DNA of 64,000 nt from Pseudonocardia sediminis (GTDB lineage Bacteria; Actinomycetota; Actinomycetes; Mycobacteriales; Pseudonocardiaceae), in assembly GCF_004217185.1 (NCBI RefSeq), contig NZ_SHKL01000001.1, forward strand, positions 2,664,001 to 2,728,000, in the 5' to 3' direction. Positions 25,783-44,186 of the stretch are shown here, piece by piece. The notes below the pieces were generated by a model. The model was not told the origin of the DNA. It made no database searches and was given only the letters and a program-made list of their open reading frames with translations. The translations under genes and the position numbers were made by a program. Each line of letters opens with the position of its first letter. The stretch's first letter is position 1.

Positions 25783-26193
25783 TCACGTCCGGAAGATCGA
25801 GGTCTCTCTGAGAAGGTCCCGGCCCGCCAACGGCCGGCTCGGTGATGGATCCGCCGCGGCTCGGACCGATCCCGGCCAGAGGTTCGGGCTGTACCCGGCG
25901 TCGTGAAACGTCACCGGAGATCCGAGGAGATCGGGTACCGGCTGGGCGCGGTCGGCAGAACGTGAGGCAGACAGCGACTTGGCCGCCTGGTCGCTCTGAT
26001 GACAGGACGGGCCGCTGTCGCCACCATGGTCGTGCGAGATTGCGGAGGCGGCGGCGGTCGTGTGGGGATGCAGCTCCCCGCCCGCTCCGCAGCTCATCTG
26101 GAACAGCGCAGCCACCAGGACGAGCAGAGTCGCCCCGAAGAGACGACGTCGCGGCGTCGACCACGACGGCAGCTCTGACCACATCCTGCTCAC
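25783..26193 (-). CDS. small exported His/Cys-containing protein, metal-associated
   Basis: A 136-residue protein with one N-terminal hydrophobic segment ([19 protein letters not shown]) that is a signal or anchor. It is followed by [17 protein letters not shown]. The His/Cys cluster and the location next to copper genes suggest periplasmic metal binding. I do not recognise a family with certainty; it is reminiscent of DUF6153-type proteins. It is divergent from the next gene. Confidence 0.5.
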
Positions 26194-26237
26194 AGTCGCT
26201 GGACCGTATCAGCCAGTCACGGCCGCCGAAGACCCGT

Positions 26238-26256
26238 CTACGGTCCAGGTCCGTAG
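26238..26256 (+). promoter_or_regulatory. CTACGG-N7-CCGTAG inverted repeat in a divergent promoter
   Basis: A 6-7-6 inverted repeat in the 137-nt divergent region between the His/Cys protein gene and the beta-propeller gene. Its size and spacing are MerR-operator-like, but no MerR gene is in the window. Confidence 0.4.
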
Positions 26257-26330
26257 ATGGCTACCATCGTGATCCGAAGATCGCCGATGCGAGGGAGACG
26301 CGTCCTGATGACCAGCACGGAGCGTTGCAG

Positions 26331-27242
26331 GTGATCCGCTCGGGGCGCGATCGCCGACCCTGGGAACGCACCCTCGTCGCTGCGGTCGTCGCCGCAACGG
26401 CCCTAGGACTCGTGGCGTGTGGTGCCGCGCCCCCCGACCAGTCGGATGCGCCCTCCGGCCCCCAGGGGTCGGCGGGCGACGGGTCCGACGCGCCGCAGTT
26501 CGATCACGTCCACGGCATGGGAGCCGACCCCGCCGATGGCACCGTGTATGTGGCCACCCACGACGGGCTGTTCCGCGCTGCGGGCGGTCCACTCAGCCGT
26601 GTCGGGACCTCCGGTCGGGACCTGATGGGGTTCACCATCACCGGCCCGAAATCGTTCCTGTCGAGCGGACATCCCGGGCCCGGCGAGCAGGCTCCGAACC
26701 CCCTGGGCGTCGTCCAGAGTGCAGATGCCGGCGCCACCTGGTCTCCCCTCGGTCTGACGGGGGAGGTCGACTTCCATGCGCTCGAGGTCCGCGGTGGAGT
26801 CGTCTACGGCTACGACGCCACCAACCGTGTGCTGCGAGCCAGCTCCGACGGCGGCCGCAGCTGGTCGTCGCGGAGCGAGCTGCTGGCGCTCGACATCACC
26901 GCCGAGCCCTCGAACCCGGCCACGGTGCTGGCGACCGTGCCCGGGGGTGTGGCAAGCAGTCTGGACGGCGGCCGCACCTTCAACGCCCCCACCGGCCCCC
27001 AGCTCGCCTACCTGTCCTGGGCACCGGACGGGGTCGTGTACGGCATCGGACTCGACGGGGCATTGTTCGCCAGCACCGACCGCGGGCTGAGCTGGGAGCA
27101 ACGGGGCACCGCCCCCGGTGGCCGCCCTCAGGCGCTCACTGCGATCCCGGATCCGGCAGCCAGTACCGACCTCCTGATCGCCACCGCGGGTGGTCTGTTC
27201 CGTTCCCAGGATGCCGGCCGATCCGTCGTCCCCCTCGCCTGA
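26331..27242 (+). CDS. F510_1955-type exported beta-propeller (sialidase-like) lipoprotein
   Basis: A 303-residue exported protein starting at GTG 26331 with GGAG 8 nt upstream. Lipobox is LVACG. The propeller opens with FDHVHGMGADPADGTVYVATHDGLFR. Asp-box repeats follow (SADAGATWS, SSDGGRSWS, STDRGLSWE, SQDAGRS). Such proteins are often found beside copper-resistance genes in actinobacteria. A glycosidase activity is not shown by the sequence; a metal-binding or envelope role is as likely. Confidence 0.85.
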   Translation: MIRSGRDRRPWERTLVAAVVAATALGLVACGAAPPDQSDAPSGPQGSAGDGSDAPQFDHVHGMGADPADGTVYVATHDGLFRAAGGPLSRVGTSGRDLMGFTITGPKSFLSSGHPGPGEQAPNPLGVVQSADAGATWSPLGLTGEVDFHALEVRGGVVYGYDATNRVLRASSDGGRSWSSRSELLALDITAEPSNPATVLATVPGGVASSLDGGRTFNAPTGPQLAYLSWAPDGVVYGIGLDGALFASTDRGLSWEQRGTAPGGRPQALTAIPDPAASTDLLIATAGGLFRSQDAGRSVVPLA

Positions 27243-28204: not shown

Positions 28205-30504
<2,300 letters not shown>

Positions 30505-30505
<1 letters not shown>

Positions 30506-31503
30506 CAGTGGCCTCCCTCGCCGTGAGCGTGTCCGGCCTCGGCCGAAGGGGCCGAGGCGACGGGTGCCGCCGCGGCGACAGCTCCGGTGGTCGGGACCGT
30601 GAACTGCACGGTCCGCACCTGCGAGCCGTGCTGGAAGTCCAGGAACAGCCGGTAGGTCCCTGCGGAGGGCACCTCCGCGGCGAAGCGGATCTGCGGGCCG
30701 GCGGTCGTGGCGCCGTCGCCCGGGGTGCCCTCGGGGTGGACGTGTAGGTACCCCAGGTCGCCGCCGCGCAGTGCCACCAGGTGCCCGTAGGCGCCGAGGT
30801 AGGGCTGCAGGTCGGTGACCGGGCGGCCGTTGCGGGCGACGGACAGGGTCAGCTCGCCGGCCTGGCCGGGCTTGAGGTCTCCCTCGAGCCAGACCTGATA
30901 GCCGCCGGGGGCGGTAGCGATGCGGTTGGGCTCGGGGGCCACGGGTGTGAACGCCCCGGGGGCGAACAGGTCGGTCCGCAGTGTGGTGGCCTCGCCACCG
31001 CTGGGGGTGAAGTCGGCGAAGGCCCGGTAGGTCCCGCCGCCACCGAGGGTGACCGGCACCCGCCAGGTCCCGTCGGCGGACATCACGGGATGCAGGTGCT
31101 GGAAGTCCGCCGTGTCGCTGCGGACCAGGATCAGGTGCATCCGCTTCTCATGCTCGACGTCGAAGGCGGTGACCGGCTTGGAGTCCGGGCCGGTGATGCG
31201 GAAGGCGAGCTCGGTGGGCTTTCCCGGGGTCAGCGTCGTCGTGGCCGGTACGAACGTGTAACCGGCTTCGGTGGACGCCAGCCCGGCGGGCTGAGTGGTG
31301 TTGCTGGCAGGGCCCCCGGGCTCGGGCGCCCCGACCTCCGCGACGGCGCCGCTGTGGGATCCCCCGTGACCGGCAGGACCGCTCTGGGCGGTCGGCTGCA
31401 GGTGTGTGGTGGGGGCATCGACAGCGGACCCGGTTCCGTACGCGCCTGCACCGAGCAGGACGACGGCCGCGCCGTAGGCGGAGAGTCGCATGGCAGTGTT
31501 CAT
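30505..31503 (-). CDS. exported copper-associated protein with His-rich ends
   Basis: A 332-residue protein with a signal peptide ([17 protein letters not shown]) and His-containing N- and C-terminal tails (GHGGSHSG near residue 45, GHAHGEGGH at the end). The middle has beta-rich segments, including [33 protein letters not shown] and [10 protein letters not shown], whose His/Met pattern suits copper binding in the cell envelope. It is translationally coupled to copA. Similar proteins occur in actinobacterial copper operons, and the role is likely copper capture or hand-over outside the membrane. Confidence 0.8.
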
Positions 31504-31571: not shown

Positions 31572-31781
31572 CTACGAGCCGGTTACCTCGTAGCCGGCTT
31601 CACGGACCGCGGCGTGCACAGCGTCGTCGGAGATCTCACCGTCGCTGGTCACGGTGACCGCACCGGTGGGCAGGTCCACGGCCACGTCGGTCACCCCGGA
31701 GATCTCGGTGACCTCCTCGGTGACCGAGCTGACGCAGTGCCCGCAGGTCATGCCGGTGACGGTGTAGGTGGCGGTGCTCAT
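31572..31781 (-). CDS. copZ: CopZ-like copper chaperone
   Basis: A 69-residue heavy-metal-associated domain. The MTCGHC motif at residues 11-16 binds Cu(I), and the fold ends with AVREAGYEV. It carries cytoplasmic copper to CopA. It lies between csoR and the exported copper protein in the same orientation. Confidence 0.93.
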   Translation of the reverse strand: MSTATYTVTGMTCGHCVSSVTEEVTEISGVTDVAVDLPTGAVTVTSDGEISDDAVHAAVREAGYEVTGS

Positions 31782-31883: not shown

Positions 31884-32165
31884 TCAGGAACGGACCAGAC
31901 GCGCGATGGCCGCGCTCGCCTCCTCGATCTTCTGGTCGGCGATCTGGCCGCCCTCGGTGACCGCGTCGGTCACGCAGTGCTTGAGGTGCTCGTCGAGCAG
32001 GCCCAGCGCGACGGCCTCGAGCGCCTTGTTGACCGCGGAGACCTGGGTCAGGATGTCGATGCAGTACTTGTCCGACTCGATCATCTTGGTGATGCCGCGG
32101 ACCTGGCCCTCGATCCGGCGCATCCGCTTGATGTGGGATTCCTTGCTGTCGGCGTAACCGTGCAT
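31884..32165 (-). CDS. csoR: copper-sensing repressor CsoR
   Basis: A 93-residue all-helical repressor that leaves DNA when it binds Cu(I). The Cu ligands Cys35, His60 and Cys64 (DKYCID, DEHLKHC) match the known C-H-C set. RMRRIEGQVRGI is the DNA-contact helix. I choose ATG 32165, with GGAGGG upstream, over a longer frame. A perfect CsoR-type palindrome lies 30 nt before the gene, so it is autoregulated. Confidence 0.96.
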   Translation of the reverse strand: MHGYADSKESHIKRMRRIEGQVRGITKMIESDKYCIDILTQVSAVNKALEAVALGLLDEHLKHCVTDAVTEGGQIADQKIEEASAAIARLVRS

Positions 32166-32194
32166 CGTGTTCCCTCCTCGATCCTGTCTCCACA

Positions 32195-32211
32195 ATACCC
32201 TTAGGGGGTAT
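32195..32211 (-). promoter_or_regulatory. CsoR operator upstream of csoR
   Basis: ATACCCTTAGGGGGTAT is a G-tract palindrome of the CsoR type, placed where it would cover the csoR-copZ-copA promoter. Confidence 0.85.
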
Positions 32212-32399
32212 CGGCATCAAGTTGGCCGGCGACACGGGGGTTGAGAGCCCGCTCACCAGGCCGAACGTCCCCCGGTGAGCACGTTGAGGGGTGGTGATCG
32301 TCGAGACCATCTCGCGGGGCTCAAGCGCGGAGGGCAGGGCAGGTGTCCTACGTCCGGGGGAGCCGGTCGAGGCGAGACAAGGGTCCTCCCAGTTGCCAA

Positions 32400-32416
32400 A
32401 TACCCTCAGGGGGTAT
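32400..32416 (+). promoter_or_regulatory. CsoR operator upstream of the Nuo-like module
   Basis: ATACCCTCAGGGGGTAT differs from the csoR site at one position. It lies 109 nt before the first NuoA-like codon, in a 313-nt region (32212-32524) that has no other visible gene. It points to copper induction of the complex-I-like operon. Confidence 0.8.
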
Positions 32417-32524
32417 AAGGCTGTACATCAACAAGGGGTATCACTGCTGCGCCGTGCCCGTTCCGCGCGTGATGCGCTGCGGGGGTACTGCACGGCAGCC
32501 CTATGGCTGACCAGGAGGTGAGTG

Positions 32525-32875
32525 GTGCAGGCTTTTGCTCCTGTGATCGCGCTGGCAGCGGTCGTTCTGATCGGGGTGGCAGCGCTCGTCGGGGCCGCCC
32601 GCCTCCTGGCCGTGGGTCCGACGGTCGTTGATCTGTTTCCTCATCTCGGAGGTCGGCCGCCGGTCGAGCACGCGGTGTCGCGGTTCCATGTCCGCTGGTA
32701 CGCCGTCACGATGATCTTTCTTGCCTTCGACATGGAGATGATCTTCATGTACCCGTGGACGGTGGTCGTGGCCACGATGGGGCCTTCTGCGGTGGTGGAG
32801 ATGTTCCTGTTCCTGGCGATCCTGCTGGCCGGCGTCGTCTACGCCTGGCGCGAAGGCGCGCTGAGATGGACCTGA
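32525..32875 (+). CDS. NuoA-like subunit of a complex-I-like membrane module
   Basis: A 116-residue protein with three membrane helices. The conserved NuoA region FHVRWYAVTMIFLAFDMEMIFMYPW is present, including the acidic residues of the TM2-TM3 loop. I pick GTG 32525, 6 nt after AGGAGG, over GTG 32522. The end overlaps the next ATG by 10 nt. It is the first gene of an eight-gene operon. Confidence 0.9.
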   Translation: MQAFAPVIALAAVVLIGVAALVGAARLLAVGPTVVDLFPHLGGRPPVEHAVSRFHVRWYAVTMIFLAFDMEMIFMYPWTVVVATMGPSAVVEMFLFLAILLAGVVYAWREGALRWT

Positions 32876-34089
32876 CCGCCGTGCTGCTGAGGCTCGCCGC
32901 CGGCTCGCCGCACGTGCTGCTCGTACCGGTGCCCGGCCACGCGCGGGTACGCAGGTCCGCCGAGCGGGAACTGGCCCGCCGCGGGTGGGCCGAGGCGACG
33001 AGCCCGGCCGACGCCGACGTCCTGCTGGTCGCCGGACGTCCGGGCCCCGGGCTGGCCGCTGTCATCGACGCCGTCTGGACGCGGATACCCGCACCACGCG
33101 TCCGGATCGAGATCGACACCGAGCCCGACCTGGCGCGTGTGCTCGACTCGGTGATCGCTGCCCTGGCCGACCCGTCGAGGGCACGTTCCGAAGCCCGTAC
33201 AGTGGCTGCGACCGAGCTGACGAGCCTCCCGCCCGATACGGGGACACCGCGGTGGGCCGGCGCTGACGGCGCGGAGTACGACCACGACTCGCCCTCCGGG
33301 CACGGCTCGTCGGGGTCCGAGCACGCCGGGCACGCCGCCGAGCAGGAGCCCGGCCACGCAAGCGCCGCGGAGAGCGACGGTCATACCGATCACGGCAGCC
33401 ACGAAGGGCACCATCATCACGGCGGGATGGAGCTTCCGGGTGGGCTGTCGATGGCCGACCTCGCCGAGGATCGCGACGGCCTGACCCTCGACGTCCTCCA
33501 TTTCCCCCTCGGCCCGGTCCTGCCGGAGTGGCCCGCCGGGTTGATCGTCGAGGTCGCCATGCAGGGCGACGTGATCACCCGGGCCGATGCCCGTGTACTC
33601 GACCGGGGCCACACCATGGCTGCTGGTCCCGGTGATCTGCAGGACGCGGTCGTCCGAGACCTCGACGTGGTCGCCCGCCTGCTCGGGGTCGCCGGCTGGG
33701 ACGGCCCTGCCGGGACGGCACGGCATCTGCGGGACCGGCTCGAGGACGGGGGGCCGTCCGGCTCACTTCGCGGACAAGCCGAGCGTTGGTCACGCCGGGT
33801 CCGGCGGTCGCGGGCGCTACGGCTGATGCTGTGCCGCATCGAGACCGCGGACGGCAGTGATGTCGCCGGGCTGCTGGAGCGGCGTCTGGACCGGATCGAG
33901 GCCCACCTCGCCGGTCGCGCCCCGATCGACGACGTGACCGAGGTCGACGTCGCGGACCTCGGCCGCCATCTGAGCGGCGTCGAGCTGGCCGGTGCGCGCC
34001 TTCTGATCGCTGCACTCGACCCGGATGTGGACAGCCGGGCGGCAGACGCCGGTCCTTCGGGAAGCCGCCGGGCGGGGGTGGACCGATGA
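32866..34089 (+). CDS. cysteine-poor NuoB/NuoD-like fusion with His-rich linker
   Basis: A 407-residue protein at the place where nuoB-nuoC-nuoD would be. Residues about 15-85 resemble NuoB (ADADVLLVAGRPGPGLAAVIDAVWTRIPAPR) but lack the Fe-S cysteines. Residues 140-187 hold 12 histidines, ending GHHHHGG. Residues 208-250 resemble the start of NuoD (LPEWPAGLIVEVAMQGDVITRADARVLDRG), then a degenerate helical part. It cannot hold cluster N2 as seen. It likely replaces the peripheral arm with a metal-responsive piece. Stop and next ATG overlap. Confidence 0.7.
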   Translation: MDLTAVLLRLAAGSPHVLLVPVPGHARVRRSAERELARRGWAEATSPADADVLLVAGRPGPGLAAVIDAVWTRIPAPRVRIEIDTEPDLARVLDSVIAALADPSRARSEARTVAATELTSLPPDTGTPRWAGADGAEYDHDSPSGHGSSGSEHAGHAAEQEPGHASAAESDGHTDHGSHEGHHHHGGMELPGGLSMADLAEDRDGLTLDVLHFPLGPVLPEWPAGLIVEVAMQGDVITRADARVLDRGHTMAAGPGDLQDAVVRDLDVVARLLGVAGWDGPAGTARHLRDRLEDGGPSGSLRGQAERWSRRVRRSRALRLMLCRIETADGSDVAGLLERRLDRIEAHLAGRAPIDDVTEVDVADLGRHLSGVELAGARLLIAALDPDVDSRAADAGPSGSRRAGVDR

Positions 34090-35012
34090 TCGTCGAGGTC
34101 CTGTCGCTGCCGCTGCTGATGGCGGTGGCGGTCTGGTTCGTCTCCGCTCTCGACACCGTGCTGGGTGCGCGGGCCGCGTCGCGTCCGGTGCGGCTGGGGG
34201 CGGCAGCGATGGCACCGGTGCGGGAGTCGGCCCGGCTCCTGGTCGGGCAGCGTCGGGTCACGCTCGCCGCGGACGGTCTGCTGCGCTGGGCAGGCACCGT
34301 CTCGCTGATCCTGGGGGCGGTGCTGGCGGCGGCCGTGGTGCCGCTGGGGCAGCGTCCGGTCGCCGACCTGTCGGTGGGTGTCGTGTGGTTCAACGCGATG
34401 GAGGTCGTCGCCTGGGCCGCGGTCTGGCTGGTCGGGTGGGGCCCGAACGGTGCGCTGTCGTTGGTGGGTGGATACCGATTCGTGGCACAGGGGTTGTCCT
34501 ACGAGCTCCCGCACATGTTCGCCATCATCACCGCCGCTCTCGCGGCCGGGAGCCTGCGCCTGACCGACATCGTCGACGCCCAGGCCGGGTTGTGGTTCGT
34601 GGTGCTGATGCCGGCGGCGTTCGCCGCCTACGTTCTCAGCGCGGCCGCGATGTCGTTCTGGGGGCCGTTCGACGCCCCGGTCGCCCGGGACGTCGCGGGC
34701 GGCGCGGCCTCGGAGCTCTCCGGTGTCGAGCGGCTGCTGTTCGAGGGCGGGCGCCGGCTGCTGCTGGTCGCCGCCGCCGCGATGGCGGTGCCGCTGTTCC
34801 TCGGCGGAGGCCACGGCCCGTGGTTGCCGGCCTGGACGTGGGTCGTGCTCAAGACCGTGGCCGTTCTCGCGCTGCTGGTGTGGCTGCGGCACCGGTCGCC
34901 GACGATCCGGATGGACCGCTGGACCGAGATCTCCTGGGTGGTCCTGCTGCCGCTGACGATCGTGCAGGCGCTGGTCGTGGCCCTGGTCGTGCTCGCCCGG
35001 GGAGGGGTGTGA
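34086..35012 (+). CDS. NuoH-like subunit
   Basis: A 308-residue membrane protein homologous to the complex I quinone-site subunit NuoH. Landmarks are VVWFNAMEVVAWAAVWLVGWG, GGYRFVAQGLSYELPHMFAII and FWGPFDAP. The quinone-cavity loops are kept only in part. The ATGA overlap couples it to the fusion gene. It would link the odd peripheral subunit to the membrane arm. Confidence 0.88.
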   Translation: MIVEVLSLPLLMAVAVWFVSALDTVLGARAASRPVRLGAAAMAPVRESARLLVGQRRVTLAADGLLRWAGTVSLILGAVLAAAVVPLGQRPVADLSVGVVWFNAMEVVAWAAVWLVGWGPNGALSLVGGYRFVAQGLSYELPHMFAIITAALAAGSLRLTDIVDAQAGLWFVVLMPAAFAAYVLSAAAMSFWGPFDAPVARDVAGGAASELSGVERLLFEGGRRLLLVAAAAMAVPLFLGGGHGPWLPAWTWVVLKTVAVLALLVWLRHRSPTIRMDRWTEISWVVLLPLTIVQALVVALVVLARGGV

Positions 35013-35013
35013 G

Positions 35014-35589
35014 ATGGCCGTCGACCCCGTCCAGCTCGCCGTGTTCGCGGTGCTCGGGCTGCTCGCGATCGTGTCCGGCGTCCTGGTGTTCGTCGTGGAC
35101 TCGATGGCGCGTGCGACGTTCGCCCTGCTGGTCTCGTTTCTCGCCGTCGCCACCCTGGTGCTGATGACCGGCCTGGCCTATCTCGGCGTCGTCATCGTTC
35201 TCATGATGATCATCGAGATGGTGATCATGGCCGTTTTCATGATCATGTTCATGATGAACCCGGCCGGCTTGATGCCGATGTCGATGTTCCACAACACCCG
35301 AGGGGCCACTGTGATCTCCGGACTGGTGTTTGCCGGTCTGGCCGCGGGGATCGTCGGGGTCGACTGGCCGCAGCGGCGCGCCGCGCCGCCCGCGGATGCG
35401 ACCGTCGCCCTCGGTGAGGCCCTGATGGGCGGCCACATGCTCACGATGATGGTGCTCGGGGTGACCCTGTTCGCGACGATCGTCGCGACCGTGGTGCTGG
35501 CCACCGACCGCGGCCGCTACGACCGTCTCGGCGACGACCTCGACGCCGAGCGCGCCGACGACCCGGCGGGAGGGGGTGTCGGGCGGTGA
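35014..35589 (+). CDS. NuoJ-like subunit
   Basis: A 191-residue, five-helix subunit. The TM3 region LAYLGVVIVLMMIIEMVIMAVFMIMFMMNP is the NuoJ hallmark, here very Met-rich, which is notable in a copper context. It starts 2 nt after the nuoH-like stop and overlaps the next gene (GTGA). Confidence 0.88.
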   Translation: MAVDPVQLAVFAVLGLLAIVSGVLVFVVDSMARATFALLVSFLAVATLVLMTGLAYLGVVIVLMMIIEMVIMAVFMIMFMMNPAGLMPMSMFHNTRGATVISGLVFAGLAAGIVGVDWPQRRAAPPADATVALGEALMGGHMLTMMVLGVTLFATIVATVVLATDRGRYDRLGDDLDAERADDPAGGGVGR

Positions 35590-35888
35590 TCCTGGAGGCG
35601 TTCCTGCTCGTCGCCGCGGCGTTGTTCGCGATCGGGCTGTTCGGCGCGCTCACCCAGCAGTCGGTCGTGATGCTGATGATGGGGCTGGAGCTGATGATCA
35701 ACGGGATCATCCTGGCCGCGGCCGCGTTCTGGTTCTTCCTCGCTCCGGCGCCCGACGGCCAGGTGATCGTGGTCGCCGTGGTGACCGCGATGGCCGTCGA
35801 GATGGCGATGGGCTTCGCCGTGGTGACGGCGATCTACCGGGCCAAGCAGATCGACATGACCGACTCCGCCGCCGAGCTGGAGGGCTGA
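35586..35888 (+). CDS. NuoK/MrpC-like subunit
   Basis: A 100-residue, three-helix subunit shared by complex I and Mrp antiporters. MMLMMGLELMINGIILAAAAFW carries the conserved membrane Glu. It starts at GTG 35586 within the previous stop. It is followed 3 nt later by the NuoL-like gene. Confidence 0.93.
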   Translation: MILEAFLLVAAALFAIGLFGALTQQSVVMLMMGLELMINGIILAAAAFWFFLAPAPDGQVIVVAVVTAMAVEMAMGFAVVTAIYRAKQIDMTDSAAELEG

Positions 35889-35891
35889 TCG

Positions 35892-37709
35892 GTGCTGATC
35901 GCCGTGCTGATCGGGGTTCCCGCGGTGGCCGGGGCGCTGCTGCTGGTCCTGCGCCCGGCCCGTGGTGCGGCAGCGGTCGGGATCGGCACGGCGGTGGCGG
36001 TGCTCGCGCTGGCCGTCGCCGCAGCCCTCACCCGGCCCTCGCTCGATCTGCCGCTGCTGGCGGGGATCCGGGCCGGTCTCGCCGTCGACGACCTGTCCGC
36101 GGTCCTGGTTCTCACGGTCGCGTCGGTGCTGCCGGCCTCGTTGGTGGTCGCGGCCGCGGAGGGCGAGCTGCGCACCGGTCGTTTCCAGGGCCTGATGCTG
36201 CTCTTCGCCGCGGCGATGCTGGGCACCGTCACCGCGACGACGGTGCCGCCGCTGCTGATCGCCTGGGAGATCATGGGCGCCACGAGCTGGGCGCTGATCG
36301 GTTACCGCAGCGCCGACCGTGCGGCCGCGCGGGCCGGGGCCGTCGCATTCCTGACCACCCGTACGGCCGATCTGGGCATCTACGTGGCCGCTGGTGCGAT
36401 GCTCGCCGGCGGCATCGGCGGCATCGGCGGCATCGGCGGCATCGGCGGCCTGGAGCTGGCCGATCTCACCGGGACCGAGGGCGGATGGCTGCACGTGGCG
36501 GTGGGTGGCCTGGTGCTCGCCGCGCTGGGCAAGTCGGCGCAGCTGCCGTTCAGCTTCTGGCTCTCGGGCGCGATGCGCGGTCCCAGCCCGGTCTCGGCCC
36601 TGCTGCACTCGGCGACGATGGTCGCCGCCGGCGCCTACCTGCTGCTGCGGGTGTCCCCGGCACTGGCCGCGACCGGATGGGCCGGGCCGGTCGTGACGTG
36701 GATCGGGCTCGGCACCGCGGTGCTGCTCGGTCTGGTCGCGGCCGCCCAGACCGACCTCAAGCAGCTGCTCGCCGCATCGACCTGCTCGCAGATCGGCTTC
36801 ATCGTCGTCGCCGCGGGCAACGCCGCTGTCGGCGCCGGCCTGCTGCAGACCGTCGCGCACGCCGCGGCGAAGAGCCTGCTGTTCCTCGTGGCCGGCATCT
36901 GGCTGGCGCGGCTGGGCACCCGCAGCCTCGACGGTGGCCTGCGCGGCGCCGCCCGCCGGGCCCCGGTGGTGGGTGTCGCGTTCACCGTCGGCGCTTTGGC
37001 GCTGGCCGGGTTCGCGCCGTTCGGGCTGTGGATAGGGAAGGACGCGGTGCTCGCGACCTCGCTGGCGGTGTCGCCGGCACAGTACGTCGTCGGCCTGGTG
37101 GCGGCTGGGATCGCCGCTGTCTACAGCGGAAAGGCGCTGTGGTTCGTGTGGCGACCCGCCCGCGACGACAGGGTGGCCGTGGCCGCGCCGTCGGTGCTGG
37201 TGACGGTCGTGCTCGCGGCGGGCGCGGCGGCCGCCGGGCTGCTCGCGTTCGCGCCCGCGCTGCGACCGGACCCCGTCCCGCACCCGGGGGAGCTCGTGGC
37301 CTCTGCTCTGATCGCGGTCGCCGGGGTCGCGGTGGCGTGGCGGATCGGTGACCGCTGCGCCGCGCCGCGGTCGTTGTCGGGGTGGCTGGGCCTGGAATCG
37401 CTGGCGGTGCGAGGACTCGCCCGGCCGGTGCTCGTGGCCGCGGCCGCGCTCGCCCGCGCCGACGGTGGTCTGGACCGCGCGGTGACCGGTGCCGCGCGCG
37501 GCGTTCTCTCTCTGGCGCTGCTGACCGATCGCCGGGCGGAGCGCGGGGGGCTCGAGGCCACCGTCCGGGCGGTGGCCCGCGGTGCCCGGGAACTGGGTGC
37601 GGCGGCGCGGCGACCGCAGACCGGGCAGGTCCACCAGTACTACGCCCAGGCCTCGGTGGGGTTCGGCCTGCTCGCGGCCCTGGCCGTGCTCGTGATCGTG
37701 GTGAGGTGA
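35892..37709 (+). CDS. NuoL-like proton-pumping subunit
   Basis: A 605-residue antiporter-like subunit. The core signature ALGKSAQLPFSFWLSGAMRGPSPVSALLHSATMVAAG holds the conserved Lys and His of the proton path. AAQTDLKQLLAASTCSQIG is the second landmark. The long amphipathic C-terminal helix region is present (roughly 450-605). A Gly-Ile-Gly tandem repeat lies at residues 174-186. Likely pumps or conducts protons or another cation. Confidence 0.93.
   Translation: MLIAVLIGVPAVAGALLLVLRPARGAAAVGIGTAVAVLALAVAAALTRPSLDLPLLAGIRAGLAVDDLSAVLVLTVASVLPASLVVAAAEGELRTGRFQGLMLLFAAAMLGTVTATTVPPLLIAWEIMGATSWALIGYRSADRAAARAGAVAFLTTRTADLGIYVAAGAMLAGGIGGIGGIGGIGGLELADLTGTEGGWLHVAVGGLVLAALGKSAQLPFSFWLSGAMRGPSPVSALLHSATMVAAGAYLLLRVSPALAATGWAGPVVTWIGLGTAVLLGLVAAAQTDLKQLLAASTCSQIGFIVVAAGNAAVGAGLLQTVAHAAAKSLLFLVAGIWLARLGTRSLDGGLRGAARRAPVVGVAFTVGALALAGFAPFGLWIGKDAVLATSLAVSPAQYVVGLVAAGIAAVYSGKALWFVWRPARDDRVAVAAPSVLVTVVLAAGAAAAGLLAFAPALRPDPVPHPGELVASALIAVAGVAVAWRIGDRCAAPRSLSGWLGLESLAVRGLARPVLVAAAALARADGGLDRAVTGAARGVLSLALLTDRRAERGGLEATVRAVARGARELGAAARRPQTGQVHQYYAQASVGFGLLAALAVLVIVVR
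36411..36446 (+). repeat. four tandem 9-bp repeats (GGCATCGGC) inside the NuoL-like gene
   Basis: Four exact in-frame copies encode Gly-Ile-Gly units in a membrane-loop region. Copy-number change would keep the frame and only lengthen the loop. Confidence 0.85.
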
Positions 37710-37712
37710 GCA

Positions 37713-39218
37713 GTGCTCTCGGTGATCGTGTTCCTGCCCGTCGTGGTGGCGGCTGCCATCACCGTCCTGCCCGCCCGGCTCGGGACCCGGTGCTTCGCCG
37801 GTGCCTGGGTCGCGACCGGGCTCGCCCAGCTGGTGCTCGTCGCCGTCGTCTGGTCCGCCCTGCCGGGCACCGGGTACGGCGCGGTGGAACGCGTCGAGTG
37901 GATCCCCAGCGCCGGGATCTCGTATCACCTCGGGGTCGACGGGCTCTCACTGCCGCTGCTCGCGCTGGTCGCCGTCGTGTTCACTGCCGCCGCGATGTAC
38001 ACCCTGCGCGGTGTGGACCGCCCGAAGAGCTATGTGCTGCTGTTCCTGGCCCTGCAGGCGGTCAGCGCCGGGTTGTTCGTCGCCCTCGACCTGATCCTGT
38101 TCTTCCTGTTCTTCGACCTGTCGATCGTGTTCATGTACTTCGTGATCGCGGGGTGGGGGACCGGGGCACCCGCCCGGCGGGCCGCTCTGACGTTCTTCCT
38201 CTACACCTTCCTCGGATCGCTGGCGCTGCTGCTCGGGTTCATCCTGCTCGCGCTCGCCGCCGACCGACCCTCGTTCGACATCCCGACCCTCGCCCAGCAG
38301 AACCCGCTCGGCGGCGGTGGGACGTATGCGGCGCTGACCCTGTTGGCGATCGGGATCGGCCTGGCCGTGAAGACGCCGGTGTTCCCCTTCCACACCTGGC
38401 TGCCGCCCGCGCACACCGAAGCGCCCGCCGCAGGGTCGGCGATCCTCGCCGGGATCCTGCTCAAGATGGGTACCTACGGGTTCGTGCGGATCGCGATGCC
38501 GTTGCTACCCGCCACGTGGCGTCAATTCGCGATGGTCGTGGTCGTCGTCGGAGTGGTCTCGGTGATCTGGGGAGCGCTGGTCGCGCTGGCCCAGACCGAC
38601 CTCAAACGGATGATCGCTTACACCTCGATCAACCACATGGGCTATGTCCTGCTCGGTCTCGGTGCGGCCGGGATGGTCGCCGGGTCCGGGGAACAGGCCC
38701 GCCAGCTCGCCACCGCCGGCGCGACTTACCAGATGGTCAGCCACGGCCTGATCACCGCCGCGCTGTTCCTGCTCGCCGGGTCGCTGCACGAGCGCGGCCA
38801 CACCTACGCCATCGACGCCTACGGTGGTCTCGCGACCCGCACGCCGCGGTTCGCGGGGCTGTTCGCGGTCGCGGCGTTCGCCTCCCTCGGCCTGCCCGGC
38901 TTCTCCGGGTTCATCGCCGAGTTCCAGATCTTCACCGGTGCGCTCGGTGCGGCCCCGGTCGCGACGGTGATCGCTGTCACGGGTGTGCTGCTGACCGCGG
39001 CGGTATTCCTGCTCGTGATGGGTCGCATGCTCGCCGGGCCGGTCCGGGTCCCGGACGGGCCGGGGACGCCGCGGCCGTTCGCCGACCTCAGCGTCTCCGA
39101 GCTGCTCGCGATCGTGCCGCTGCTCGCCGGGGCCACCGTCCTCGGGCTGGCCCCGCGGGTGGTGCTCGATGTGATCGAGCCCGCCGCGCGGGTCCTCAAC
39201 GACTTCCTCGCGCGGTGA
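37713..39218 (+). CDS. NuoM-like proton-pumping subunit
   Basis: A 501-residue antiporter-like subunit. GVDGLSLPLLALVAVVFTAAAMY is the N-terminal quinol-oxidoreductase motif. VKTPVFPFHTWLPPAHTEAP contains the conserved Lys, and LAQTDLKRMIAYTSINHMGY the second half-channel. It starts at GTG 37713, 3 nt after the NuoL-like stop, and is full length for the family. Confidence 0.94.
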   Translation: MLSVIVFLPVVVAAAITVLPARLGTRCFAGAWVATGLAQLVLVAVVWSALPGTGYGAVERVEWIPSAGISYHLGVDGLSLPLLALVAVVFTAAAMYTLRGVDRPKSYVLLFLALQAVSAGLFVALDLILFFLFFDLSIVFMYFVIAGWGTGAPARRAALTFFLYTFLGSLALLLGFILLALAADRPSFDIPTLAQQNPLGGGGTYAALTLLAIGIGLAVKTPVFPFHTWLPPAHTEAPAAGSAILAGILLKMGTYGFVRIAMPLLPATWRQFAMVVVVVGVVSVIWGALVALAQTDLKRMIAYTSINHMGYVLLGLGAAGMVAGSGEQARQLATAGATYQMVSHGLITAALFLLAGSLHERGHTYAIDAYGGLATRTPRFAGLFAVAAFASLGLPGFSGFIAEFQIFTGALGAAPVATVIAVTGVLLTAAVFLLVMGRMLAGPVRVPDGPGTPRPFADLSVSELLAIVPLLAGATVLGLAPRVVLDVIEPAARVLNDFLAR

Positions 39219-39222
39219 CGCC

Positions 39223-40641
39223 GTGGAGATGATGGCCCCCGGCGACCCGTCGTCGCTGATCCCGGAGATCGCGCTGCTGCTCGGCGCGGTCACCGGGCTG
39301 CTGCTGGGCGCTTGGACCCCGCGCCGCCGGCAGTGGATCGTCCGCGGCCTCGCCGCGGTCGCCGCGGGGGTCGGCCTGGCCGCCACGGCGGTCGCGGCGA
39401 ACCGCCCGCCGGACGTGGTGTTCGGGACCTATGTTCTCGACACCGCCACCCATGCCACCCGGGCGATCGTGCTCGTCGCACTGCTGCTGCTGCTCGCCCT
39501 CTGCGGCGACACCGTCGCCGGGCACCGCAGGGAGACCGAGTTCGTGGTGCTCCTGCAGCTCGGCGCGCTCGGCTCCATGCTGCTCGGCGGCGCCGCCGAC
39601 CTGATCCTGTTGTTCGCGGCGTTCCTGCTGGCCAGCGTCCCGCTCTACGCCCTGACCGGCTGGTCGAAACAGGGGACCGCACCCGAGGCCGCCCTGAAGT
39701 ACTACCTCGCCGGCGCTCTGGCCGGGGTGGTGACCGCGGCCGGGGTCACCCTGCTGTTCGCGGTCTCCGGGGCCACCGGCTACGACGCGCTCGCCGCCGA
39801 GCTCACTCGGGGCCCGGCCGCCGTGGCCTCGGTGGGGCTGGTCGCGGTGTTGGCCGGTCTGGCGTTCAAGGCCGGCGCCGTGCCGGCACATTTCTGGGTC
39901 CCCGACGTCAGCGACGGCACCCCACCGGCGGTCGCGGCGGTCGTCACGACGCTGCCCAAGATCGGCGCCGTGGTCGCCATGGCCCGGCTGCTGGAGGCGG
40001 CCATCCCGCCCGTCGTCGTCGACTGGCCCCTGCTCGTCGCCGTCCTGGCGGCTCTGAGCATGACCGTGGGCAACCTCGCCGCGTTCGCGCAGACATCGGT
40101 CCTTCGGCTGCTGGGCTACTCGACGGTCTCGCAGGTCGGCTATCTGCTGATGGGGGTCGCCGTGGCGGGGCGGACGGGGCGGGCCGAACCGGCGCTGCTG
40201 TTCTACCTCGCTGCCTACGCGGTCACCAACGTCGCCGCGTTCGCCGTGGCTGCAGCCACCGGCCGGCGCACGCTGGCGGGACATCGTGGCCTGGCCCGCC
40301 GTGATCCCGTGCTCGCGGTGGCACTCGTCGTCGCTCTTCTCGGGCTGGTGGGGACTCCGCCGACCGCGGTGTTCCTCGGCAAGCTGACAGTGTTCAGCGC
40401 GGCGGTCGACGGTGGTTTCGCCTGGCTCGCCGTGCTCGCCGCGGTGAACACCGTCGCCTCATTGTTCTACTACCTGCGATGGGTCGCCCCGGTGTTCCGC
40501 GATCCTGTCGACGACGCAGACACAGCGGTAATGCGCACGCGGGGGTGGGCTCGCGACACCGCGATCGGCGCAGCCGCGCTGTCCGTCCTTCTCGGCGTTG
40601 CCGGTGGTGTGGTGCTGACCGCATTCGGCTCGGTCACGTGA
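39223..40641 (+). CDS. NuoN-like proton-pumping subunit
   Basis: A 472-residue antiporter-like subunit. Key motifs are KAGAVPAHFWVPDVSDGTPPAVAAVVTTLPK and FAQTSVLRLLGYSTVSQVGYLL. It completes the A-H-J-K-L-M-N membrane set. No nuoC, E, F, G or I homologue is present nearby, so the module has no NADH dehydrogenase or Fe-S chain of its own. The stop overlaps a possible GTG (40638) of the next gene. Confidence 0.92.
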   Translation: MEMMAPGDPSSLIPEIALLLGAVTGLLLGAWTPRRRQWIVRGLAAVAAGVGLAATAVAANRPPDVVFGTYVLDTATHATRAIVLVALLLLLALCGDTVAGHRRETEFVVLLQLGALGSMLLGGAADLILLFAAFLLASVPLYALTGWSKQGTAPEAALKYYLAGALAGVVTAAGVTLLFAVSGATGYDALAAELTRGPAAVASVGLVAVLAGLAFKAGAVPAHFWVPDVSDGTPPAVAAVVTTLPKIGAVVAMARLLEAAIPPVVVDWPLLVAVLAALSMTVGNLAAFAQTSVLRLLGYSTVSQVGYLLMGVAVAGRTGRAEPALLFYLAAYAVTNVAAFAVAAATGRRTLAGHRGLARRDPVLAVALVVALLGLVGTPPTAVFLGKLTVFSAAVDGGFAWLAVLAAVNTVASLFYYLRWVAPVFRDPVDDADTAVMRTRGWARDTAIGAAALSVLLGVAGGVVLTAFGSVT

Positions 40642-40676
40642 GCGGCGCATGGAGCGGCGCAGGTAGCGTCGGTGTC

Positions 40677-41114
40677 GTGAACGGGCGACGGTGGGGGCGG
40701 GTACTGCTCCTGACCCTGCCGGTGTTGTTCGGGCTCCTGGGCATGCACGCGCTGGTCGTGGTTCCGGCTACCGGCACCGGCGGCATGGATCACCCGCCGG
40801 TCGCGGAGGCGACGCCGGTCCCCGGTCCGCACGTCGCTGCCACGACACCGGTTGTCGCTGCCGCCACCCGTGGCGAGCAGAGCCCTCCGGCCGGGCACGG
40901 TGGACATGACGGGGGCATGGGCCACCTGATGCACCTGTGCCTGGCTGTCCTGGCCGGTATCGCTGCGGTCCTGCTCGTGGCCGGGATCATCCTCGGCCTC
41001 GTGCCGCTTCCGGTGTCGACGGGTCGTGCCCGCCGGTGGGCGCGTGCGATGTCGGTTGCCCGTCCGCCCCCGGTCTCGAGACGGCTCGCCCAGCTCTGCG
41101 TGATGCGGAACTGA
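40677..41114 (+). CDS. DUF6153-type small membrane protein
   Basis: A 145-residue protein with two hydrophobic segments. The first is the N-terminal LLTLPVLFGLLGMHALVVV (GMHAL is typical of DUF6153). A His-rich GHGGHDGGMGHLMHLCLAVL precedes the second. DUF6153 proteins recur beside actinobacterial copper genes and may bind copper at the outer membrane face. GTG 40677 gives the best N-terminus; GTG 40638 would be coupled to the NuoN-like gene. Confidence 0.78.
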   Translation: MNGRRWGRVLLLTLPVLFGLLGMHALVVVPATGTGGMDHPPVAEATPVPGPHVAATTPVVAAATRGEQSPPAGHGGHDGGMGHLMHLCLAVLAGIAAVLLVAGIILGLVPLPVSTGRARRWARAMSVARPPPVSRRLAQLCVMRN

Positions 41115-41188: not shown

Positions 41189-41812
41189 ATGAAGATCAAG
41201 AACGTGGCGCTGGCCGCCACGTCGCTCGCCGCTGCCCTCGTCCTGTCCGCCTGCGGCTCGGGGGACTCCCCGGGCACCGCCGCCGGCGCACCGCCTGTCC
41301 CGAGCTCGGCGGCGTCGCCCGGCTCGCAGCAGGTCTCGGCTGAGCACAACGCCGCCGACATCGCGTTCGTCCAGGGGATGATCCCCCATCACCGGCAGGC
41401 GGTGGAGATGGCGAAGCTCGCCGACGACCGTGCGGGCGACGGGGTCAAGGACCTCGCTACCCGGATCGAGCAGGCCCAGGGGCCGGAGATCGAACAGATG
41501 CGGGGCTTTCTCACCGCCTGGGGTGCGCCGGAGTCCGGGCCCATGAGCTCCATGCCGGGCATGGAGTCCGGGGCCATGGGGGGCATGCAGGGGATGATGT
41601 CCGGGCAGGAGATGGCGCAGCTCGGGCAGGCATCCGGTGCCGAGTTCGACCGCATGTTCCTCCAGATGATGACCGCTCACCACGAGGGGGCCGTGCAGAT
41701 GGCTCGGACCGAACTCTCGGCCGGTGTCAACCCGCAGGCCAAGGCCCTGGCGCAGCAGATCATCGACGCGCAGCAGGCTGAGATCACCGAGATGCGGGGC
41801 CTTCTCGGCTGA
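41189..41812 (+). CDS. DUF305 copper-associated lipoprotein
   Basis: A 207-residue exported lipoprotein (lipobox LSAC near residue 22). Two DUF305 half-motifs are FVQGMIPHHRQAVEMAKLA and FLQMMTAHHEGAVQMARTEL. Between them is a Met-rich linker (MSSMPGMESGAMGGMQGMM). The His and Met content fits copper binding in the envelope. GGAG is upstream of ATG 41189; ATG 41168 is also possible. A strong terminator follows, ending the copper block. Confidence 0.9.
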   Translation: MKIKNVALAATSLAAALVLSACGSGDSPGTAAGAPPVPSSAASPGSQQVSAEHNAADIAFVQGMIPHHRQAVEMAKLADDRAGDGVKDLATRIEQAQGPEIEQMRGFLTAWGAPESGPMSSMPGMESGAMGGMQGMMSGQEMAQLGQASGAEFDRMFLQMMTAHHEGAVQMARTELSAGVNPQAKALAQQIIDAQQAEITEMRGLLG

Positions 41813-41859: not shown

Positions 41860-41876
41860 ATACCCCCAAGGGGTAT
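41860..41876 (+). promoter_or_regulatory. orphan CsoR operator
   Basis: ATACCCCCAAGGGGTAT, a third CsoR-type palindrome. A partial match (ATACCCCC at about 41895 with TATAAG behind it) follows. The next reading frames downstream are gene remnants, so this may be the promoter of a lost copper gene. The 41813-42115 gap holds nothing else that I can support. Confidence 0.7.
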
Positions 41877-42115: not shown

Positions 42116-42302
42116 ATGAGGCGCGATGAGGAGACGGCCGACCCCGTCTTTTCCAGTGAACTGGTGGCGCGGTCGTACCGCGTGCTCGACGAGGCCCGGT
42201 ACCTCGCTCTCGCCACGGTCTCGCCGAACGGGATGCCGTGGTCGGCGGTGCTGCAGTACACCTGGCTCGACTTACCTCTACGGTTCGTGGTCGGATCCGC
42301 AA
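42116..42302 (+). pseudogene. pyridoxamine-phosphate-oxidase-like (flavin-binding) N-terminal fragment
   Basis: About 62 codons read a typical PNPOx-fold start (VLDEARYLALATVSPNGMPWSAVLQYTW), then similarity ends abruptly near 42300. The rest of this frame is low-complexity. It has an intact start and an upstream inverted repeat, so it was once an expressed F420/FMN-binding split-barrel protein. Confidence 0.6.
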
Positions 42303-42800
42303 CCGGCTCTCAGTTACGAGGATCTCGGGTTCGGCCGGCTCGCCGCGCGGATGATCAGGGCGGGTCTGAACGGCGACCGCGCCAACGCCGTCGGTGTCGC
42401 CGAGCACGCGAACAGGTCTCCGGACGAGCTGGTGGCCATGGCACGTGAGCACGTCCAGCCCAGGGGTCTGACGTCGATGATGGGCGGCCGGATCGCCCTG
42501 ACCGACGGCATGATCCACCACCAGGACATCCGCCGGCCCCTCGGAATGCCACGAGAGATCCCCGCCGACCGGCTCGTCGCCGCACTCGAGACGGCGAAGA
42601 CGGCACCGACGATCAGCGCCGCGAAGCGCATCAAGGGCCTGCGGCTGGTCGCGACGGATCTGGACTGGAGCACCGGTGACGGCCCCCTGGTCGAGGGCAC
42701 GGGGGAGGCGTTGCTGATGGCGATCGCGGGCCGTCGCGGCATCGTCGCGGAACTCTCCGGCCCGGGTGCGGCGACGTTGATCGACCGGATCGGCGGCTGA
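42303..42800 (+). pseudogene. maleylpyruvate-isomerase/DinB-like (TIGR03083 type) C-terminal fragment
   Basis: In the frame that joins right after the previous fragment, LSYEDLGFGRLAARMIRAG, GGRIALTDGMIHHQDIRRPLG and the domain end LIDRIGG match the mycothiol-dependent maleylpyruvate isomerase family. The N-terminal half, with its first metal His, is missing. The fragment is joined without a linker to the PNPOx piece, so a deletion fused two genes out of frame. Confidence 0.6.
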
Positions 42801-42895
42801 CCCGCTGCGGGGAACTCTTCACGCTGAGGAAACCCACGCCGTCCGCAGCGCCGTAGCGTTCACCGGACGTCGATCCACACCAGGAGGTGCGACTC

Positions 42896-43507
42896 ATGGC
42901 GCGAATCCCACTCGTCGACCACCACGACCCGAATGTCGACCCGACCGCCCGCGCACTGTTGCAGGCCGCGGAGGACGCTCAGCCCGACGTCGGGGTCCTC
43001 AACGTCCACAAGGCGCTGGCGAACCACCCGGCGGCGTTGCAGAAGTTCATGGAGTTCGCGCAGGTCGTGTACTTCGAGAACTCGATGCCGGACGCGAAGA
43101 CCCGCGAGCTGCCCTACCTGACCTCGGCGGTCGCGAACAACTGCTTCTATTGAACGCCGACCCACTTGGTGCTCGGTCGAGCATCCGGACTGACCGACGA
43201 GCAGATGTCGCACCTGCTCGACGACCCCCTGCCGGAGGGCATGTTCACCCCGGCGGAAGAGGCGATCATCGTCTACGCGCGCACCTCGACGTGGTTCCAA
43301 CCGATCACCGACGAGATCTGGGACGACCTGCGCGCGCACTTCACCGAGAAGCAGTGCATGGAGATCTCGTTCACCGTCGGCCTCGACCAGCTGGTGAGCC
43401 GTTTCCACGCCACGGTGCAGACCGACGTCGACTCAGTCACCACCGACCAGCTCACCGGGTCGTGTCCGGTGGCTCTACCACCGCCGCCGGGGGCGCCGCC
43501 GTCGTAG
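42896..43507 (+). CDS. AhpD-like carboxymuconolactone decarboxylase family protein with in-frame TGA: candidate selenoprotein
   Basis: Starts at ATG 42896, 8 nt after AGGAGG. Codons 1-85 end NNCFY; codon 86 is TGA (43151-43153). The same frame goes on TPTHLVLGRASGLTDEQMSHLL to a stop at 43507 (203 codons). The AhpD active site is Cys-x-x-Cys followed by His four residues on. Here it would be Cys83-Phe-Tyr-Sec86 with His90, exact spacing. Both halves are well conserved in style. AhpD-like selenoproteins with CxxU are, to my knowledge, a reported family. It would reduce peroxides or another oxidant via a dithiol partner. Confidence 0.8.
43168..43186 (+). promoter_or_regulatory. SECIS-like hairpin of the AhpD-like gene
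   Basis: GGTGCTC-GGTC-GAGCATCC folds into a 7-bp stem with one bulged U and apical loop GGUC, beginning 21 nt after the TGA. Loop sequence and closing pairs (CTC-GGTC-GAG) are identical to the methyltransferase hairpin at 15605-15620. Confidence 0.55.
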
Positions 43508-43592: not shown

Positions 43593-44186
43593 CTATATAC
43601 CGAAGGCCCCGCCTTCGATCAGGATGACCAGGCCGATCCCGATCAGCACGACCGGCAGGATGATGTGTCCCCACCGGGCGAGGGTGCGGGCGACCGGCGG
43701 CCGGGTGGCGAAGAACCGGCCGGTCGCGCACCAGACGGCGACGAGCACCAGGAACACTGCGACGTAGGTGACCATCCCCGCGGTTCCGGCGTTGGCGAGG
43801 ACCGGAACGTACACACCGATGTTGTCCCCGCCGTTGGCCAGCGTGACCGTCGCGACGGTGAGTATGCCGACGTCACCGTCGTTCGGAGAGTCGGTCTCGG
43901 AATCGTGGCGCTCGCGCCAGGCCGTCCACGCCGCTCGGATCCCGAGCAGCAACGGCAGGATCCCCAGGTAGGGCAGAACGGACTCCGGGAGAAGGCCGGC
44001 GCCGAGCGCTCCGACGACGGCTGCCGCCACGATGCCCGCGAATCCCAGGTACTGCCCGATCACCACGATCGACGCTCCGCGCGGCCGTCCGCGGACTCGT
44101 GCGAAGAACAGCGCGAGGATGAGGATGTCGTCGATGTTGGTGACGGCGAACATGCCTGCGGCCTGGGCGACCACCCCCAGCGACAT
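43593..44186 (-). CDS. CadD family cadmium resistance transporter
   Basis: A 197-residue, five- to six-helix membrane protein. AVTNIDDILILALFFARVRG and VTLANGGDNIGVYVPVLA are the two acidic CadD/LysE-like motifs. It probably exports Cd(II) or a related cation. GAGAGGGG lies 6 nt before the ATG. It stands alone, between the AhpD-like and glyoxalase genes. Confidence 0.88.
   Translation of the reverse strand: MSLGVVAQAAGMFAVTNIDDILILALFFARVRGRPRGASIVVIGQYLGFAGIVAAAVVGALGAGLLPESVLPYLGILPLLLGIRAAWTAWRERHDSETDSPNDGDVGILTVATVTLANGGDNIGVYVPVLANAGTAGMVTYVAVFLVLVAVWCATGRFFATRPPVARTLARWGHIILPVVLIGIGLVILIEGGAFGI

Follow-up and report, generated by a model that had tools for sequence, protein, structure and literature searches.

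What does an assembly built like the membrane half of respiratory complex I do when its genes adjoin a copper-resistance locus? In the window, the 64,000-nucleotide stretch of the Pseudonocardia sediminis genome analyzed here, an eight-gene operon (32522-40641) encodes nuoA, a fusion protein, and nuoH, J, K, L, M, and N, and adjoins csoR, copZ, and copA. All seven Nuo membrane homologs named in the initial annotation are above their Pfam cut-offs and lie on the plus strand in the order A, H, J, K, L, M, N: NuoA (32522..32875, E 3.4e-25, with a GTG start codon at 32522), NuoH (34086..35012, 2.5e-45), NuoJ (35014..35589, 8.6e-12), NuoK (35586..35888, 1.5e-13), and the antiporter-like subunits NuoL (35892..37709, 4.8e-44), NuoM (37713..39218, 7.2e-67, with TIGR01972 also over its cut-off), and NuoN (39223..40641, 1.4e-50). 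By ORF coordinates, the genes are closely spaced, with overlaps of 4-10 bases or gaps of 1-4 bases. On the minus strand lie a csoR-type repressor (31884..32165; PF02583, E 2.3e-29), a copZ-like chaperone (31572..31781; MTCGHC motif in the translation), and a predicted copper-type P-type ATPase, copA, with an HMA domain (28205..30505; Pfam E1-E2_ATPase 1e-52, HMA 6.7e-15); placed between copZ and copA is a 332-aa ORF (30505..31503) whose translation has a signal-like N-terminus, His-rich ends, and no Pfam match over cut-off, and whose homolog was matched at 19/94 loci. On the other side, on the plus strand, are a His/Met-containing DUF6153 protein (40638..41114, start inferred; PF19650, 3.4e-11) and a His/Met-rich DUF305 protein (41189..41812; PF03713, 1.5e-51), so the copper-related flanks reported earlier are all present. 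Three unstranded palindromes match the CsoR-type motif, one on the csoR side (32194..32211), one 3' of the DUF305 gene (41860..41876), and, as had been described, one ahead of the operon (32399..32416), where it forms a predicted regulator site 105 bases upstream of nuoA; 100 shuffles of the window gave a mean of 0.00 matches per shuffle.

These genes are neither chance ORFs nor a decayed respiratory cluster. All eight were found at 123/135 related actinobacterial loci, and we reject chance ORFs because the expected A-fusion-H-J-K-L-M-N order is kept in 122 of those 123, the sole exception being on a contig of 7.7 kb, on which the N query matched the M gene. A degraded copy of the host nuo genes is also rejected: the host has its own canonical nuo cluster elsewhere, at about 5.70-5.72 Mb (L, M, and N by Pfam; A, B, D, H, J, and K read from sequence). 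Searches for canonical NuoB, D, F, G, and I gave no match at E 1e-10 in 120 homologous loci including the window, so we reject an NADH dehydrogenase. The reported absence of F, G, and I is thereby borne out. The proposal of an ion-translocating frame that lacks a working redox arm is supported, and canonical nuoB, D, F, G, or I genes that might have stood beside the operon in relatives are not found there.

All of the membrane frame is in place, with the majority of proton-path residues retained in NuoL and NuoM. Specific residues of the antiporter subunits have roles in the proton path, and among 113 loci NuoL E126, K214, K290, H323, and K383 and NuoM K220 are kept in 100% and NuoM K251 and E403 in 97%. 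Several canonical charged NuoL residues are changed, for example one His and one Lys, NuoM has an Asp where the canonical subunit has Glu, and NuoN is missing one canonical Glu.

At the position of NuoB-C-D stands, as the initial annotation had it, one fusion protein without Fe-S cysteines (32866..34089, plus strand), a 407-aa ORF between nuoA and nuoH that on its own matches no Pfam family. Profile comparisons resolve it into a NuoB-like front part, a His/Met-rich linker, and a NuoD-like rear part. In a search of the family profile against the PDB, 41/42 matches were NuoB or its relatives (best E 5.9e-7), the remaining one being a cobaltochelatase. The NuoD-like assignment comes from other comparisons, Foldseek among them; when the D part of 54 class members was set against canonical NuoD with hhalign, no match resulted (E 0.91). 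All Foldseek E values exceed 0.001 (best 6.1e-3), but nearly every listed hit, 49 of 50, is to a chain of complex I, NDH, MBH, MBS, or formate hydrogenlyase. No Cys is conserved in the family (at most 11/54 in any column), and gaps stand opposite the canonical NuoB cysteines in the profile alignment. Most fusions carry a His/Met tract: at least 8 His and Met residues within 40 residues in 86/113 (14/113 have fewer than 5 in any 40 residues), and in one clade a heavy-metal-binding domain (HMBD) in the linker, which is present in 4/6 tested fusions from other classes. The HMBD also occurs in copper ATPases and CusB-type proteins. A probable copper-binding protein stands in for the electron-carrying half of this complex I relative, so the machine may move copper rather than electrons.

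Soft-metal ligand residues are also conserved, as residues, in the membrane subunits A, H, J, and K. Eighty loci had been fetched with patterns that contain NuoJ methionines and further genomes with a NuoJ profile; since counting ligands in NuoJ-fetched loci would be circular, the fixed positions were recounted only in loci found through the fusion, without NuoJ as a query. In those loci 25 Met/His positions are fixed or nearly so (15 in NuoJ, 4 in NuoK, 4 in NuoA, and 2 in NuoH), and the same positions are almost absent as Met/His from canonical subunits. In the window they comprise H50, H56, M73, and M76 of NuoA, M144 and M175 of NuoH, M29, M31, M69, and M73 of NuoK beside the kept E35 and E72, and, in the Met-rich NuoJ, 14 fixed or nearly fixed Met and H93, along with E68. 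The share of Met is raised solely in J, K, and A. We make no claim of a Met stripe along one side of NuoJ helix 3, where conserved Met and Glu cluster only weakly on one face (8.9% of random draws did as well). In complex I the A-J-K-H junction couples quinone chemistry to the antiporter subunits, and residue conservation makes it likely that this junction holds Cu(I) ligands here.

Could the copper instead take over the redox task? NuoA and NuoH frame the quinone site of complex I, and both are retained together with the NuoD-like part; copper in the fusion might then trade electrons with a quinone held by NuoH, replacing the Fe-S chain and driving or using proton movement, and multicopper oxidase homologs do lie near 13/94 loci. 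We consider such a copper-redox pump improbable, because an electron partner was not found, the fixed ligands are mostly membrane Met, which suits holding of Cu(I) better than electron transfer, and the stretch GPQHPSTHG of the host NuoD, which we take to carry the quinone His, reads GPVLPEWPAG in the window fusion. Junction ligands alongside retained proton-path residues could also describe a copper-gated proton valve or sensor that tunes the proton gradient under copper stress and moves no copper; eight subunits would be costly for a valve, however, and Met at several inferred depths suggest a path rather than a single site, so we regard this alternative as quite doubtful.

The tie to copper extends to gene neighborhoods and regulation. 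Copper-gene homologs, among which copA matches may include other P-type ATPases, occur at 54/94 loci and at 11/27 loci of the class sample versus 0/13 canonical nuoB loci (11/27 against 0/13, one-sided Fisher 0.0056). Other classes of the phylum have copper genes at 10/14 loci and csoR at 7/14, and in four proteobacterial plasmid records, two of them from one strain, the operon stands with other copper systems in 4/4, with CueR annotated in 3. Within 400 bases before nuoA, an exact CsoR-type box was found at 19/90 and 2/26 loci and a box with at most one mismatch at 37/90 and 5/26, compared with 0/12 canonical loci and, in shuffles, 0-1/116 (exact) and 2-5/116 (at most one mismatch). One genome in which the operon has no nearby copper-query match contains the strict box at four places: before copA, at a homolog of the 332-aa ORF, before the operon, and at one unassigned site; in a second genome, 2/3 box sites are unassigned. 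Neither a copper gene nor a box was found in the stretch at 28/93 and 11/27 loci. The copper link is therefore frequent but not universal: the proposed tie is backed by genes, boxes, and Met/His positions, with a large minority of loci standing outside it. Overall, we hold a copper role to be very probable.

We put roughly 55% on the reading that the operon encodes a non-redox, copper-dedicated relative of the complex I membrane half, which would use protons to drive Cu(I) export as a backup to CopA. That it transports, in which direction, and with what coupling are proposals, the direction being guessed from gene company, and proton-driven export itself we put at about even odds. Cu(I) handed over by CopZ or by the cytoplasmic His/Met tract would enter at the interface of the fusion and NuoA (H50, H56), pass the NuoJ loop (M89, M91, H93) and the Met-lined A-J-K-H junction, and exit to the outside, where it might be received by DUF305, DUF6153, or multicopper oxidase proteins; protons flowing in through L, M, and N would supply the driving force, which is what would make the machine a proton-driven exporter. 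The outer end of this proposed path is the least secure since NuoJ M87, M138, and M145 are not kept in three aligned proteobacterial NuoJ. Counting in favor of a copper role, all three proteobacterial NuoJ read have His-rich tails. Of the two functions suggested by the initial annotation, copper transport gains from the fixed Met/His positions and membrane-potential repair gains nothing because no electron input was found. Import, or delivery of copper to cuproenzymes under copper control, would also fit the ligands and regulation, and cupredoxin or oxidase genes lie near some loci; we nevertheless think it unlikely, given that the neighbors are mostly of resistance type (copA, csoR, copZ), that control by CsoR-type regulators or CueR generally signals induction when copper is in excess, and that the His-rich tracts presumably face the cytoplasm.

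Known systems share parts of this architecture. Respiratory complex I has in common with it the membrane arm A, H, J, K, L, M, N and the counterparts of the NuoB/NuoD remnants, but the operon has no electron-input subunits found and no Fe-S ligands, its B and D parts are fused around a metal tract, and Met/His residues stand at the junction. Mrp, MBH/MBS, and DAB complexes put complex I-type antiporter subunits to other uses, Mrp and DAB being non-redox. MrpE, F, and G and the DabA-type partner of DAB/Mps complexes have no Pfam match in the operon, where only Nuo-type families are matched over cut-off (none by the fusion), and the metal-cluster Cys of the large and small subunits of MBH/MBS and energy-converting hydrogenases are absent; unlike these complexes, the operon retains NuoA, H, J, and K, has a remnant of NuoB and NuoD, and is linked to copper. 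The copper exporters CopA (a P-type ATPase) and CusCBA probably share its task, with an unrelated frame, and the energy source proposed here is the proton gradient. There is an even chance that this is a new class of copper transporter, in which Cu(I) passing through the A-J-K-H junction, not quinone reduction, would be coupled to the L, M, and N proton channels. If so, a metal ion could take the place of electrons in complex I coupling, and the drive from junction to antiporter could be tested in a machine without redox chemistry.

The gene set had been thought to have no described counterpart, but it is already in print as a 'partial nuoAHJKLMN operon' among 'marine adaptation genes' of marine actinomycetes, interpreted in the passages concerned as pumping protons or sodium to cope with salt and as marine or osmotic adaptation (PMC3314556, PMC4018334, PMC6002675, PMC6676996, PMC8622039). 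That operon has identical genes in the same order, and in those passages the hypothetical protein after nuoA is given no role and no copper connection is drawn; searches of the open-licence PMC literature yielded no copper reading of it. It is almost certainly the operon described here, Salinispora and Kocuria being likened by description; Streptomyces griseus, named in passages of the marine literature, has a locus in our set (L028). New here are the 25 fixed or nearly fixed Met/His positions of the A, H, J, and K subunits. A partial complex I pumping H+ or Na+ in seawater would fit the marine strains of those five reports and the marine sources of our four proteobacterial records. We think it very unlikely: no electron input to power such a pump was found (120 loci), soil, sputum, and glacier isolates carry plasmid copies as well, the copper regulators and Met/His positions are left unexplained, and passages of the marine papers themselves mention a Streptomyces whose source was copper-rich mine fluid and a Kocuria obtained from a copper mineral. 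If true, the copper-exporter reading would supersede the marine-adaptation explanation of this common gene set, bring in a further kind of copper transport, and assign a role to the published 'hypothetical protein'.

The operon is spread over Actinomycetota and plasmids of Pseudomonadota; no NuoH relative was confirmed on viral contigs. In a NuoM tree of sampled sequences (19 actinomycete, 12 other-class, 3 proteobacterial, and 20 canonical), the copper-type sequences form one group (34/34, support 0.959) and canonical NuoM was not recovered as a separate group. Public records label these proteins as NADH-quinone oxidoreductase subunits, and such labels mislead metabolic models.

The eight-gene operon at 32522-40641 on the plus strand (nuoA, a 407-aa fusion protein and nuoH-J-K-L-M-N, tightly packed) is a genuine non-redox relative of complex I, widely distributed and linked to copper. 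In the window, the csoR-copZ-orf332-copA group (orf332 being a 332-aa frame) adjoins it in divergent orientation and DUF6153 and DUF305 genes lie downstream. Elsewhere in the host genome, at ~5.70-5.72 Mb, lies a distinct canonical nuo cluster. Three CsoR-type palindromes occur in the window, where chance predicts none, and one stands 105 bases upstream of nuoA. The strict palindrome is found at seven places in the host genome, two of them away from copper genes and five near them: the three in the window, one at a second csoR-copZ pair, and a fifth at an ATPase giving a copA-like match.

The operon recurs widely. Scanning genome contigs with NuoJ gave at least 400 confirmed relatives; we used the best 80, whose titles mark them all as actinobacterial. 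Among plasmid records the fusion search found 16, all actinobacterial, and the NuoJ search 18, including 4 proteobacterial. At 1e-25, NuoJ is matched in 24 of the 296 genomes of the phylum sample, 21 of them outside the class, and loci from 14 of these 21 were fetched. All eight genes are present at 12/14 window and plasmid loci, 74/80 contigs (the best 80 of at least 400), 25/27 class-sample loci and 12/14 other-class loci, and in 122 of the 123 complete loci their order is kept on one strand; where genes are missing, the locus is often a short contig or a broken copy. The annotated order is identical in all four proteobacterial records, two of which are plasmids of one strain. A Pseudarthrobacter plasmid (L022, 12653-13815) carries a shortened fusion beside an IS3 transposase gene, and plasmids of Ornithinimicrobium (L021) and Rhodococcus oxybenzonivorans (L020) carry fragmentary genes; these three are likely broken copies.

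The fusion occupies the place between nuoA and nuoH, and alone it has no Pfam match. Its family profile searched against the PDB matches NuoB-type chains in 41 of 42 cases (best E 5.9e-7; 2.9e-5 with the 54-member profile) and aligns with canonical NuoB at E 5.5e-7 and probability 86, the Fe-S cysteines of the latter falling in gaps. In the class sample the profile matches 223 of 394 genomes, 27 of them strongly (E <1e-30). The other 196 matches are weak (best E 9.4e-7 to 1e-3) and, among those listed, mostly cover one stretch (profile positions ~44-83); we read them as canonical nuoB because 12 of the 13 fetched lie beside nuoA- and nuoH-like genes. The rear is NuoD-like: PF00346 is matched weakly by 13 of 54 members (best 0.0015) and above cut-off by all six other-class relatives tested (E 1.5e-18 to 6e-13), which host NuoD as query also finds (E down to 7.7e-11). 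An AlphaFold model reaches a pTM of 0.78 and a mean pLDDT of 83.6, which falls below 50 over residues 132-186, and complex I-type chains make up 49 of its 50 listed Foldseek matches, every one at E >0.001. The linker is commonly metal-ligand rich, 86 of 113 fusions having at least eight His+Met within 40 residues and 14 fewer than five, and four of six tested other-class fusions carry an HMBD heavy-metal domain in it (E 1e-22 to 1.7e-12). Two Pseudonocardia plasmid fusions (L011, 14001-15485; L016, 12001-13413) have long HGE repeats in the linker, dozens in L011, and public annotation splits or misses the gene.

Queries with csoR, copZ, copA, multicopper oxidase, DUF305 and orf332 within the fetched stretches found homologues at 54 of 94 loci (csoR at 25), a set that includes the best 80 of at least 400 contigs and near-duplicates such as L012 and L023, at 11 of 27 class-sample loci (csoR at 5) and at 10 of 14 other-class loci (csoR at 7), against 0 of 13 canonical control loci, which were unmatched by species. 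The copA matches may include other P-type ATPases; at other-class locus L188 the link is one moderate ATPase match, and at L193 it is DUF305 alone. Counting copper genes, Cys-rich DUF326 neighbours or palindromes with at most one mismatch, 65 of 93 loci are marked, as are 16 of 27 in the class sample with one cupredoxin neighbour added; 28/93 and 11/27 have none of these in the fetched stretch. CueR, copA and oxidase genes are on three of the four proteobacterial records and copAB-type genes on one. On Mycobacterium avium and M. intracellulare plasmids (L012, L023) the operon, with copA/copZ, lies near nocobactin-type genes. The Cys-rich DUF326 protein of locus L099 (6187-6834), the one member of a cluster at nine loci that was run against Pfam, is perhaps of a copper-storage type.

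Methionine is enriched in some membrane subunits, the median share being 9.6% in copper-type versus 3.2% in canonical NuoJ, 8.9% versus 5.1% in NuoK and 5.2% versus 3.2% in NuoA (113-117 copper-type and 19-20 canonical sequences), with no rise over canonical in NuoH, L, M and N. Among loci found through the fusion, NuoJ M31, M64, M65, E68, M69, M72, M76, M80, M81, M87, M89, M91, H93 and M138 are present in 37/37 and M142 and M145 in 36/37, all 16 being 0/19 in canonical NuoJ; likewise NuoK M29 and M31 (37/37) and M69 and M73 (36/37; canonical 0/19), NuoA H50, H56, M73 and M76 (39/39; canonical 1, 0, 1 and 0 of 20), and NuoH M144 and M175 (36/36; canonical 0/20). Together these subunits have 25 fixed or nearly fixed Met/His positions, several adjoining acids retained from complex I (NuoA D70 and E72, NuoK E35 and E72). 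Aligned proteobacterial NuoJ has M87, M138 and M145 replaced, and a His-rich tail closes the three proteins examined (9, 19 and 35 His per protein). Along the proton path, NuoL retains E126, K214, K290, H323 and K383, NuoM retains K220, K251 and E403 with Asp in place of one Glu, and NuoN retains three Lys and has lost one Glu. The membrane placement and the roles assigned to all these residues are transferred from the structure of complex I.

Most simply, Cu(I) would take the place of electron input in a complex I-like frame, since the proton machine is kept, the redox arm is dead and bears metal tracts, and soft-metal ligands are fixed round the junction. Gene company and plasmid carriage favour copper export, driven by protons; both the coupling and the direction of copper movement we infer, and the mechanism is likely but unproven. 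Passages of earlier papers treat the nuo gene set as a marine or osmotic adaptation (PMC3314556; PMC4018334; PMC8622039; PMC6002675; PMC6676996). In one, the gene order has a hypothetical protein following nuoA, and SM254, which comes from copper-rich mine fluid, is noted to carry a copy (PMC6676996); another lists nuo in Kocuria from a copper mineral (PMC6002675). Our searches of the open-licence PMC literature found no copper reading of the gene set; the genes are already known and their assignment to copper is new.

The third palindrome of the window (41860-41876) lies past DUF305 with no obvious copper gene after it, and the region beyond may be rearranged. Remnant-looking genes occupy 42126-43440: one matches MDMPI_C in part, and in another a carboxymuconolactone decarboxylase frame ends at 43153 though the reading goes on. 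A cadmium transporter of the Cad type follows at 43593-44186. The protein at 25842-27242 has weak BNR-repeat matches; of the 117 loci that were clustered, 16 have a member of its cluster nearby.
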